This document shows, piece by piece, positions 28,321 through 31,862 of a stretch of 32,173 nt of DNA. The position numbers and the translations under genes were made by a program. Positions within the stretch are counted from its first letter, which is position 1. Each line of letters opens with the position of its first letter. The stretch is from Hyphomicrobiales bacterium (lineage in GTDB: Bacteria > Pseudomonadota > Alphaproteobacteria > Rhizobiales > Xanthobacteraceae), in the NCBI GenBank assembly GCA_021732625.1, contig JAKFUP010000001.1, positions 1 through 32,173 on the forward strand, given 5' to 3'. The notes under the pieces were generated by a model. That model was not told where the DNA came from, searched no databases, and saw only the letters and a program-made list of their open reading frames with translations.

Positions 28321-28779
28321 TTAGCGGCCGGTGGAGCCGAATCCGCCGCTGCCACGGCCGGTTTCCGAGAGTGCGGCGACCGGGGTGAACCGGGCTTGGC
28401 TAACGGGTGCGATCACCATCTGAGCGATACGCTCGCCGCGCTGGATGGTGAAGTCCGTATTCCCGTGATTGATCAGCAAAACGCCGATTTCGCCGCGGTA
28501 ATCGGCATCGATTGTTCCCGGGGCGTTGAGCACCGTGACGCCGTGTTTGGCCGCGAGGCCTGAGCGAGGGCGTACTTGCGCCTCGTATCCCGGCGGCAGC
28601 GCAATCATCAGTCCGGTCGGCACAACGGCGCGCTTCCCTGCTGCCAGTATGAGTGGTTCGTTCTCGGGAACCGCAGCGAGCAGGTCCATCCCGGCGGCCA
28701 GCACGCTGTGGTAGGCCGGCAGCGCCAATCCGTCTGCGTGGGGTAATCGCTGAACTTCGATCACGGGGGTTGCGCTCAT
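28321..28779 (-). CDS. dut: Deoxyuridine 5'-triphosphate nucleotidohydrolase (dUTPase)
   Basis: dUTPase hydrolyses dUTP to dUMP, keeping uracil out of DNA and supplying thymidylate synthesis. The 152-residue trimeric-type protein has all five motifs: [38 protein letters not shown] (with the catalytic Asp), RGERIAQMV and the C-terminal [11 protein letters not shown] arm that closes over the active site. The frame extends to 28860, but the ATG at 28779 overlaps the coaBC stop (ATGA), giving the normal start and coupling. The coaBC-dut order is common in proteobacteria. Confidence 0.97.
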
Positions 28780-30218
28780 GTTGACTCCGCGGCAGAGATT
28801 TCCCGGGCGATGCGATCGACCAGCGCCGATGCCACATCGTCTTTCATCATCGCGGGCCACGATTCGATTTTCGTTTCGCCGCCGCTTTTGCCCTTCATCA
28901 GCAGATGAACCGTGTTGCGGTCGCCGCCCATCACTCCGCCCGACGGCGAAACGTCGTTCGCGACGATCCAGTCGCAGCCTTTGCGTAACAGCTTCGACAT
29001 CGCGTTATCGATCAGGTGCTCGGTTTCGGCGGCGAAGCCGATTACGAGCGGTGGCCGCTTCTGTTTCAGCTTGGATATGGTCGCGAGAATGTCGGGATTT
29101 TCGACGAGCTGCAGCGGCGGCATGCCCGACGATGTTTTTTTGATTTTCTGATCGCCCTCGCGCGCCACGCGCCAGTCGGCGACAGCCGCCGCGAAGATCG
29201 CTATATCCGCAGGCAGTGCGTCTTCGACCTGCCTGAGCATGTCCCGCGCGGCTTCGACACGAATGACGCGAACGCCCGGCGGATCGTTCAAACCAACGGG
29301 CCCAGAGACCAATGTCACGTTGGCGCCTGCGGCGGCGGCAGAGGCCGCAATGGCAAAGCCTTGCTTGCCTGACGAGCGGTTGGCGATGTAGCGGACCGGG
29401 TCAATTGGTTCATGTGTGGGGCCAGCCGTAATCAGGATACGCTTACCGACCAGCGGTCCGACGGGTGCGGGCCGTAGTATTTCCATCGCAGCATTGGCGA
29501 TCTCGATCGGCTCAGCCATGCGGCCGATACCGGCTTCATTGGCTTCGGCCATTTCACCAGCGTTCGGGCCGATCACAAGAATGCCATCGGTTTTCAACTG
29601 AGCCAGATTGCGGCGCGTCGATGGGTTATTCCACATCAGCGGATTCATTGCCGGCGCCAGCAGTACAGGACGATTGCTCGCAAGCAGGATCGCGGTTGCG
29701 AGATCGTCGGCATGGCCGTGAGCCATCTTGGCCATCAGATCGGCAGTCGCAGGCGCGACGACGATCATGTCGCAGTCGCGCGCGAGGCGAATATGTCCTG
29801 CATCGAACTCGCTCTTGGGATCGAACAAATCCGTATAGACATGCTCATGCGCCAGCGCGCTTGCACTGAGGGCCGTGACGAATTGCTGGGCTCCGCGCGT
29901 CAGTACGCAGCGGACATGGACATCGCGCTCTTTGAGGCGGCGGATCAGATCGAGCGCTTTATATGCGGCGATGCCGCCGCCAATGATGAGCGTGACTTTA
30001 AAACCAGTCGACGAAGCCACGCTTGATAGCGTGGGCATGCTTTTGATTTCAGGAGCGCGCTGGTGCTCTTGCCGACGAACCTGAGGTGCGCCTTCGTGGG
30101 TTGCCTCACGCAGGATTGTGCGCACCTCATCCTCAACCGAGCGGCCATGTCGCGCGGCACGCAGCCGAAGCTGGGCTTTGAGAGCTTCGTCGAGTTTGCG
30201 GACGGTGAGGCTGGCCAT
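28776..30218 (-). CDS. coaBC: CoaBC with an N-terminal ribbon-helix-helix (FitA/VapB-like) domain
   Basis: CoaBC joins cysteine to 4'-phosphopantothenate (CoaB, C-terminal) and decarboxylates the product on FMN (CoaC, N-terminal) for coenzyme A. In this 480-residue protein residues 1-42 are a ribbon-helix-helix (RHH) DNA-binding domain of antitoxin type: strand SLTVRKL, then two helices with [16 protein letters not shown]. After a linker (about 43-70) comes CoaC, with [17 protein letters not shown], His142 ([10 protein letters not shown]) and Asn192 (PAMNPLMW). The spacing of those two equals E. coli His75/Asn125. Glu225 stands where E. coli has Cys158. CoaB follows intact ([43 protein letters not shown]). 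The ATG at 30218 has a GGAAG ribosome binding site; an internal ATG at 30038 lacks one. Two ATGATATCAT palindromes lie upstream. Confidence 0.93.
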
Positions 30219-30242
30219 GCGCGATCTTCCAATATCGCGGAT

Positions 30243-30271
30243 AGATTATGCGATGATATCATCGCAATCAA
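30243..30271 (-). promoter_or_regulatory. Candidate coaBC promoter spanning an operator palindrome
   Basis: On the minus strand TTGATT (30271-30266) is a plausible -35. TAATCT (30248-30243, 17 bp spacing) or CATAAT (30250-30245, 15 bp spacing) could serve as the -10. The spacer is almost exactly the palindrome GCGATGATATCATCGC. The start of transcription would lie roughly 15-20 bases before the ATG at 30218. The -10 choice is uncertain. Confidence 0.45.
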
Positions 30272-30294
30272 GATAATGATTGCAATGATATCAT
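30250..30294. promoter_or_regulatory. Double palindromic operator candidate upstream of coaBC
   Basis: ATGATATCAT occurs exactly at 30253-30262 and 30285-30294, with centres 32 bp apart, about three helical turns. The proximal copy is the core of a perfect 16 bp palindrome, GCGATGATATCATCGC (30250-30265). A further inverted repeat GCAATCA/TGATTGC (30264-30270 and 30277-30283) lies between them. The distal copy overlaps the ubiB stop codon. Such paired palindromes are typical of binding sites for RHH dimers, and coaBC itself starts with an RHH domain. Confidence 0.7.
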
Positions 30295-31862
30295 TTGTGG
30301 ATTGACCAGAGAATGCCAAGAAAAGCCAACGCTATGACCCACAATGCTACGGCGCTCCACCGATTGCGTCGCGCTTCCGCCCGCCCGATGGCCTCGATCG
30401 TCTCTGGCGCGAGGATCAGACCATTGCGGGTGGCAGCGTCGAATTGCTCGAGCACGGCGACCGAGCGCGCCGCGATTGCCGGCAGGCCCGACATGATTCG
30501 CCCGAGTTCGCTTGCGCCGCTGACCGCGCCTGCGATACGTCCGACCGGGCCGAGGTTGCGCTCGATCCATTCACGGACCACTGGCTCGGCTGTGGTCCAT
30601 ATGTCGAACTTCGCATCGAAGCTGCGCGCGACGCCCTCGACCACGACCATGGTCTTTTGCAGCAGGATTAATTCCGGGCGCGTGCGCATATCGAACAAGG
30701 CAGTAATCTCGAGCAGCAAGGTCAGCAATCGCGCCATCGAAATCTCCTCGGCGGTGCGATTGTGAATTGGCTCGCCGATGGCGCGGATGGCTTGTGCAAA
30801 ATTCTCGATCGAATGATGCGCTGGGACGTAGCCCGCCTCGAAATGCACTTCAGCAACGCGATGATAATCGCGCGTGATAAAGCCAAGGAGGATCTCGGCG
30901 AGAAAGCGCCGCTCCTTCATGCCGAGCCGGCCCATGATGCCGAAATCGACGGCGACGAGGCGGCCTTCCTTGTCGACGAACAGATTGCCCGGATGCATGT
31001 CGGCATGGAAAAAGCCGTCGCGGAGCGCGTGACGTAAAAAGCTCTGGATCACCTTACGGCCAAGATCCGGGAGATCGACATTTGCGGCCTTCAGACCCGC
31101 GTGATCGTTCAGCGCGATGCCATCGATCCATTCCATCGTCAGCACCGAATGGCTGGTGCGATCCCAATCCACACTCGGAGTGCGGAAATCCAGATCGTCG
31201 CGCGTATTCTCGGCCAGCTCCGACATCGCAGCGGCTTCCAGCCGTAAATCCATTTCCATTGCAACCGAGCGCGACAACGTCTCGAAGACCTCGACCATGC
31301 GCAACCGCTGCGCTTCAGCGGAATGCTCTTCGGCTTTGCGCGCCATGAACATGAAAGAGCGAAGATCACGCCGGAAGCGCGCCGCTATATTTGGGCGTAA
31401 TACTTTGACTGCGACGCTGCGGCGGACGCCATCATGCTCGGTCTCTGCACGATGGACCTGTGCGATTGAGGCCGCGGCGACCGATGGACCGAAGGTCGCA
31501 AACGCCTGTGCCAGTGGCCGTTCCAGCGAGGTCGCGACAATTGTTTCGGCCTCGGTCTGTGGAAATGGCGGCAAGCGATCCTGCAAACTTTCCAGATCGC
31601 GAGCGATTGCGACGCCGACGACATCGGGGCGCGTCGCAAGAAACTGTCCAAGTTTGACGTAAGTCGGCCCGAGCCGGGTCAACGCACGCGATAGCCGCGC
31701 GCCGGATTTGACGCCCGGACGTTCGATCAATCGCGCCATGCGCAATGCAAGCTGCGCAGGCGGTGGCAGGGGTGCCGGATCGACGACGCCGAACACGCCT
31801 TCGCGCGCGAATACGAAGCCGGCGCGCATCAGGCGCACGGTATGAGTGAACGCAGAAATCAC
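30291..31862 (-). CDS. ubiB: UbiB, ubiquinone biosynthesis atypical kinase/ATPase
   Basis: UbiB supports ubiquinone synthesis as an atypical ABC1/ADCK kinase-like ATPase at the inner membrane. The 523-residue protein has the family KxGQ motif (Lys70-Gln73 in [13 protein letters not shown]), the alanine-rich AAASIAQVH loop, AVKVLRP with the ATP lysine, [11 protein letters not shown] and VDFGIMG. One or two C-terminal membrane segments are visible at about 502-521 ([19 protein letters not shown]). The start is GTG, overlapping the ubiE stop in GTGA. The TGA stop lies inside the distal ATGATATCAT palindrome of the coaBC control region. The intergenic gap to coaBC is only 72 bp, so read-through transcription into coaBC is possible. 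Confidence 0.96.

Follow-up and report, generated by a model that had tools for sequence, protein, structure and literature searches.

A CoaBC enzyme fused to an antitoxin-type ribbon-helix-helix domain: a predicted repressor of its own operon with visible toxin-antitoxin relatives

The window, a 32,173-nt stretch of DNA from a Hyphomicrobiales bacterium, encodes a coenzyme A biosynthesis enzyme, CoaBC, that begins with a ribbon-helix-helix (RHH) DNA-binding domain of the FitA/VapB antitoxin class. We consider it probable, judging from sequence comparison, that this domain enables CoaBC to repress its own coaBC-dut operon, and autorepression is strongly inferred. The fusion, operator-like sites that co-occur with it and are specific within the genome, toxin-antitoxin intermediates and distinct further fusions are all seen in the sequences of the window and its relatives.

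The fusion gene and its product

ORF reading gives a single frame, uninterrupted from ATG to TGA (Table 1). The first-pass annotation had recognized in it an RHH domain of the FitA/VapB class in frame with complete CoaC and CoaB parts, and database searches bear out both points. Pfam assigns the N-terminus to FitA-like_RHH (PF22513; 62.4 bits, E 3.9e-17, cutoff 27) and the remainder to Flavoprotein and DFP, each above cutoff. The NCBIfam model of CoaBC, TIGR00521, scores 388.5 bits against an equivalog cutoff of 219.7; its alignment with residues 74–470 takes in model positions 5–391 of 392, i.e., the whole model. In a PDB sequence search, CoaBC of M. smegmatis (6tgv) matches residues 74–471 (E 3.3e-72), and FitA of 2h1o and 2bsq matches residues 2–38 ungapped, with E values (0.014 and 0.015) that are weak alone. 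The RHH domain and the enzyme thus form one polypeptide, an architecture like that of PutA.

Table 1. Features of the coaBC locus (positions in the window).
Feature	Position	Strand	Basis or remark
RHH-coaBC fusion gene, 480 aa	28776..30218	-	ORF, Pfam, NCBIfam
FitA-like ribbon-helix-helix domain, residues 2–39	30102..30215	-	PF22513, FitA structures, invariant residues
Linker, residues 42–72	30003..30095	-	low model confidence
CoaC (flavoprotein, PPC decarboxylase) domain, residues 74–240	29499..29999	-	PF02441, 6tgv
CoaB (PPC synthetase) domain, residues 257–440	28899..29450	-	PF04127
Operator-like site 2 (proximal), TGATTGCGATGATATCA	30254..30270	-	overlaps perfect 18-bp palindrome 30249–30266
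Operator-like site 1 (distal), TGATTGCAATGATATCA	30277..30293	+	inverted relative to site 2; overlaps ubiB stop
GGAAG, Shine-Dalgarno-like, 7 nt 5′ of the RHH ATG	30226..30230	-	sequence
dut (dUTPase)	28324..28779	-	ATG overlaps coaBC stop (ATGA)
Putative promoter, TTGATT (30271–30266), 17-bp spacer, TAATCT (30248–30243)	30243..30271	-	sequence reading

Positions G141–I143, P189–W196, N280–K285 and K358/K360/K361 are invariant in 29 aligned fusions, and we take them to be the CoaBC active-site motifs GH(I), PxMNxxMW, NRSSGK and KxKK, respectively. CoaC of E. coli depends on an essential cysteine in its flap. The corresponding flap of the window protein (29517–29570, CoaBC residues 217–234) contains no cysteine, and neither do those of 120 fused and 26 listed unfused relatives; CoaC of this order may perhaps finish the reaction differently. 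In six genomes (G227, G248, G269, G284, G333 and G511) the alignment breaks into a CoaC and a CoaB piece, 69–117 nt apart within one open frame, which suggests a longer joint between the two domains.

Among fused proteins, 92 distinct RHH sequences agree without exception at nine positions (R7, L9, R20, A22, S27, E29, E31, R33 and L36); R7 presumably corresponds to a DNA contact in FitA. From residue 40 up to the CoaC strand, 125 fused proteins have between 26 and 55 aa. The median pN/pS is higher for RHH (0.31) than for CoaC (0.215) over 4867 pairs, which are not independent of one another. An AlphaFold2 model based on 29 sequences (mean pLDDT 73.8) places helices at residues 11–24 and 28–41, followed by the enzyme domains, with pLDDT of 51–74 in the RHH blocks and below 50 in linker residues 42–70. 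No RHH protein appears among 50 listed of 1882 Foldseek matches, all of which are CoaBC, single domains or related flavoproteins. Comparison by eye with free antitoxins recognized no FitA-type toxin-binding tail in the window linker.

The RHH start is likely the translated one, as the first-pass annotation had argued from its ribosome binding site: a Shine-Dalgarno-like stretch precedes it, and none was seen by eye before the internal ATG at 30038. A linker methionine occurs in only 16 of the 125 fused proteins, and we reject the internal ATG as a general explanation. A frameshift or sequencing error, the other artefact considered from the outset, is rejected as well: the genus-mate G001 shares the fusion (87% identical), and it is present at every one of the loci retained as the best 80 of 176 named relatives, including the complete chromosome of Bradyrhizobium barranii (L235). 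These 80 align from residue 1; Bradyrhizobium supplies most of them, two strains named Bradyrhizobium diazoefficiens included, and Nitrobacter (L250) and Tardiphaga (L218) are also represented. One record, L213, is titled Frankia sp. RB7 and has a coaBC resembling that of Bradyrhizobium; it is perhaps mislabelled or contaminated.

Upstream of coaBC lie ubiE and ubiB (ABC1), and downstream dut, probably co-transcribed with coaBC, followed by a PAS histidine kinase gene. No toxin gene adjoins the fusion among these four neighbours, in agreement with the initial reading. The window genome, about 91% complete, yielded no second PF22513 gene; its two PIN genes both lie away from the fusion locus.

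The extension turned out to be common when CoaBC homologues were searched for it, as had been proposed with its discovery. A first sample (60 of 61 genomes with a match) gave 20 whole-protein alignments from residue 1 and two further RHH carriers, one in frame with a longer linker (G013) and one split by a frame break (G020). Among the matches listed for 198 genomes of the family, 195 of which had a CoaBC match, at least 115 align from residue 1 or 2, i.e., from the RHH domain; one of these, G015, has a stop within the aligned stretch. Outside the family, the order sample (146 of 150 matched) contains, among the matches listed, only two whole-length alignments from residue 1, G330 and G300, which share one genus of another family, g108. 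Two other candidates, G261 and G326, proved unfused on inspection. In the class sample (85 of 115 matched) the only whole-length match from residue 1 is that of the window's own genome, the other short matches from residue 1 being separate small genes. Fusions with a strongly divergent RHH would escape all these searches.

Operator-like sites and the promoter region

The DNA from the ubiB stop to the coaBC ATG contains two inverted 17-bp sites, 23 bp apart. The pattern common to both, TGATTGCNATGATATCA, has only two exact matches in the window genome, namely these sites. Relatives share the consensus TGATTGCA-n-TGCAATCA, from which the window sites deviate by two and three changes. Within 200 nt upstream of coaBC, a site with at most three mismatches to the consensus is present at 135 of 145 fused loci and one with at most four at 144, compared with 0.03% and 1.2% of shuffled upstream stretches (n = 2900), respectively. 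The best site has 0, 1, 2, 3 or 4 mismatches at 62, 20, 40, 13 and 9 of these loci, and one locus has no site; at L094 (G067) no site occurs within 200 nt and one is found further upstream only. Eighty of the 145 loci are the named close relatives and hence not independent, and the consensus was derived from the same loci that were scored; independent evidence comes from the genome-wide test.

The sites accompany the fusion. None of 26 loci lacking both a fusion and a toxin-antitoxin module (four of them from other families) has a site with three or fewer mismatches in up to 1200 nt; the best has four, once. A tblastn search of up to 1400 nt upstream of these 26 loci likewise found none of the antitoxin or toxin types that served as queries. 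The comparison of fused and unfused loci was run without L071, L074, L078, L085, L089, L135 and L144, and L004, which it classed as unfused, is a fused locus.

In 14 genomes scanned in full, sites with no or one mismatch occur in 11, and all of them precede coaBC. Eleven two-mismatch sites were found elsewhere, in excess of the one found for the reversed control. Two of the eleven were inspected by a coarse ORF check: that of L046 (G011:C43:2015-2031) occupies a gap upstream of an ORF which we take to resemble rpoH, and that of L041 falls inside long ORFs. The paired sites, unique as they are in the genome and found together with the fusion, agree with the predicted DNA-binding role. The first-pass annotation had envisaged an enzyme perhaps reporting flavin, CTP, cysteine or CoA status to transcription. 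Since the close sites all precede coaBC, we favour control of the own operon over a many-gene reporter; a wider regulon is not favoured, though two-mismatch sites occur elsewhere.

The symmetry of the site is maintained as its sequence changes. Departures from the consensus are often found on both arms, and the palindrome is preserved in the variants TGATGGCA-T-TGCCATCA, TGCATGCA-T-TGCATGCA and TGATATCA-A-TGATATCA, as would be expected if a symmetric dimer recognizes the site. At the 120 of 157 loci with at least two sites, the distance between neighbours is 22–23 bp in 87 pairs and 9 bp in 17.

Site 2 straddles the −35 element and the spacer of the putative promoter. The pattern TTGATT-N17-TA...[TA] fits 21 of 68 site contexts, the −10 profile across 183 site contexts is mixed, and a consensus promoter scan puts a single promoter elsewhere, at 30319–30290. 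The assignment is tentative, because a spacer of 21 fits equally well (21 of 68) and because the scan points elsewhere.

Probable toxin-antitoxin ancestry and apparently repeated fusion

Several unfused relatives in the window's family hold an intact module, a FitA-like antitoxin gene plus a PIN toxin gene, between ubiB and coaBC (G102, G197, G097 and G119; PIN confirmed by Pfam in the first three). The modules of G102 and G197 have a perfect operator, and their toxin stop overlaps the coaBC start, as would be expected within one operon; that of G097 has no good operator. Two further modules are decayed. In G010 the antitoxin is whole, the toxin is reduced to its two ends and there is no good operator; in G073 the antitoxin retains its tail, the toxin is mostly gone and the operator is perfect. 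These six loci come from 28 fetched unfused family loci, a non-random draw. A toxin, absent beside the window gene, is thus found in relatives at the very same place, intact or as remains, when it is looked for as first suggested.

Of 14 FitA-like genes standing free elsewhere in the family, 5 bear an operator of the same kind and nine do not; one such site is exactly the one seen at a fused coaBC (L060, L018). In a CoaBC tree of 85 rows, three of them from other families, fused, toxin-antitoxin and plain states are mixed, and well-supported branches force at least three changes of state; L005, L007, L016, L081, L082, L135, L144, L157, L163 and L167 are outside this tree. We conclude that the window RHH domain probably descends from a FitA-PIN toxin-antitoxin module, an ancestry visible in its relatives.

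Genus g108 offers a parallel case. The fusion is present in 45 of 60 matched genomes; 12 of the 15 unfused ones have an antitoxin and a toxin at the place and three have neither, with toxins located by tblastn at L277, L281 and L284. At least five different antitoxins are fused to CoaBC, judging from junctions inspected in 22 of the 45. The commonest is the G330 type, of which all 12 tested have TGATTGCATTGCTATCA or TGATAGCATTGCTATCA. For the other four types, free antitoxins of intact sister modules at the same place match the fused part better than the G330 type does: 81–82% over 79 aa for G374, 75% over 83 for G348, 78% over 67 for G369 and 69–71% over 83 for G391/G392. The toxin-binding tail is retained in G348, G374, G391 and G392, and hence in all but one of the four. 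At six g108 fusions that are less common or more distant, the operator match is good in G390 and poor in G348; G369 has an off-consensus palindrome, as does G374, there before an upstream RHH gene, and no good operator was found at G391 and G392.

Because both antitoxins and junctions differ, the fusion appears to have arisen several separate times. The g108 CoaBC tree (36 rows) has at least five state changes, with the fused label loosely clustered; losses and inter-strain cassette exchange would give the changes seen in both trees, and the mixing of states likely reflects new fusions and exchanged cassettes alike.

Two features of the ubiB-coaBC gap are recorded here in addition. In genus g108 it carries several antitoxin types, free or fused, that do not track the CoaBC tree, a pattern suggestive of a hot spot at which cassettes are exchanged. 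In the gap at L257/L295 (G265), L276, L279 and L283, two antitoxin-like RHH genes precede one PIN toxin gene, and these tandem modules bear a TGACAGCA-n-TGCTGTCA palindrome.

Proposed mechanism and relation to known systems

We propose the following course of events. An ancestor would have carried a FitA-PIN module between ubiB and coaBC, whose autoregulated promoter also read coaBC. The toxin gene would then have been deleted and the antitoxin RHH joined in frame to coaBC, with the operator kept. In the resulting protein, RHH dimers of the CoaBC oligomer are predicted to bind one or two of the 17-bp sites overlapping the putative promoter. More enzyme would mean more repression and hence a steady enzyme level; since every repressor molecule is an enzyme molecule, output would stay near a set point.

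What could hold several RHH dimers together after loss of the toxin is suggested by two known proteins. In FitAB, the toxin makes no DNA contact and strengthens binding by tethering antitoxin dimers, as stated in excerpts of its description (PMC3920265). CoaBC is dodecameric, and mycobacterial CoaB is inhibited by CoA thioesters, according to passages of PMC7794376. The dodecameric core could have taken over the tethering part of the toxin, which would explain why the fusion is such a frequent remnant. We entertain as a tentative possibility, not a favoured one, the fuller version in which CoaBC has stepped into the toxin's role of co-repressor, its grip on DNA being tuned by ligands or by its assembly, so that a toxin-antitoxin feedback loop would have been turned, several times independently, into a coenzyme A homeostat.

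A related proposal, compatible with autorepression and extending it, is a ligand-gated trigger enzyme in the manner of PutA, with the FMN, CTP, acyl-CoA or substrate state setting DNA binding. Its appeal lies in the architecture, for PutA, likewise a flavoenzyme, carries its RHH domain at the N-terminus and acts as an autogenous repressor (PMC5293562), and in the mycobacterial CoaBC dodecamer, whose inhibition by CoA and acyl-CoAs (PMC7794376, in the passages referred to above) makes ligand control of DNA binding possible. The sequence, however, carries no sign of coupling, the linker being of low model confidence and variable in length and sequence, and we regard such gating as possible but doubtful.

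We consider all of the remaining explanations unlikely. If the RHH domain were a neutral relic of toxin-gene deletion, decayed modules such as those of G010 and G073 and the two fusions without a good operator (G391 and G392) would be natural, but nine residues would hardly stay invariant in 92 RHH sequences beside a variable linker, with pN/pS at 0.31, nor would operators be kept with symmetric changes; a relic is improbable. RHH domains form dimers, and the domain could in principle be a mere dimerization or assembly handle of CoaBC that binds no DNA. That idea leaves the operators, their genome specificity and their absence at plain coaBC loci unexplained and strikes us as very improbable. 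Least credible, by a little, is that the fusion still serves as an antitoxin neutralizing a PIN toxin made elsewhere. The tails kept in G348, G374, G391 and G392 and the two PIN genes elsewhere in the window genome speak for it; yet the window protein has no recognizable tail, and its genome, at about 91% completeness, has neither a second FitA-like RHH gene nor a PIN gene adjacent to the fusion.

We know of one case, PutA, in which an RHH domain within a metabolic enzyme makes it its own repressor, and to our knowledge transcriptional control of the bacterial CoA pathway has been little described. No earlier report of a CoaBC fusion to an RHH domain or antitoxin was found in open-licence full texts. 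If autorepression by the fusion is true, CoaBC would be a second such self-repressor beside PutA, here in the CoA pathway. It also exemplifies one ending of toxin-antitoxin modules: loss of the toxin, with the antitoxin kept as a regulatory part of its neighbour. Intact, decaying and fused stages coexist in living relatives, with several separate fusions, which makes the fate of chromosomal toxin-antitoxin modules addressable at this single locus.

Like PutA, the fusion is a flavoenzyme that begins with an RHH domain; PutA represses its own genes, and the CoaBC fusion is predicted to do so. It differs in that the enzyme is CoaBC, the RHH domain is of the FitA-antitoxin type with visible toxin-antitoxin ancestry, and there is apparently one target operon. 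With FitAB and VapBC it shares the RHH family PF22513 and, in relatives, the place between ubiB and coaBC; its operator kind is that of some free FitA-like genes of the family (the 5 of 14 noted above). Unlike those modules, the locus has no toxin gene beside the RHH and no recognizable toxin-binding tail, its RHH domain is joined to an enzyme, and antitoxin dimers tethered in FitAB by the toxin would here be tethered by CoaBC. Compared with CoaBC (Dfp) itself, the window protein has complete CoaC and CoaB domains, as the TIGR00521 score attests, and differs by about 70 extra N-terminal residues that carry the RHH domain.
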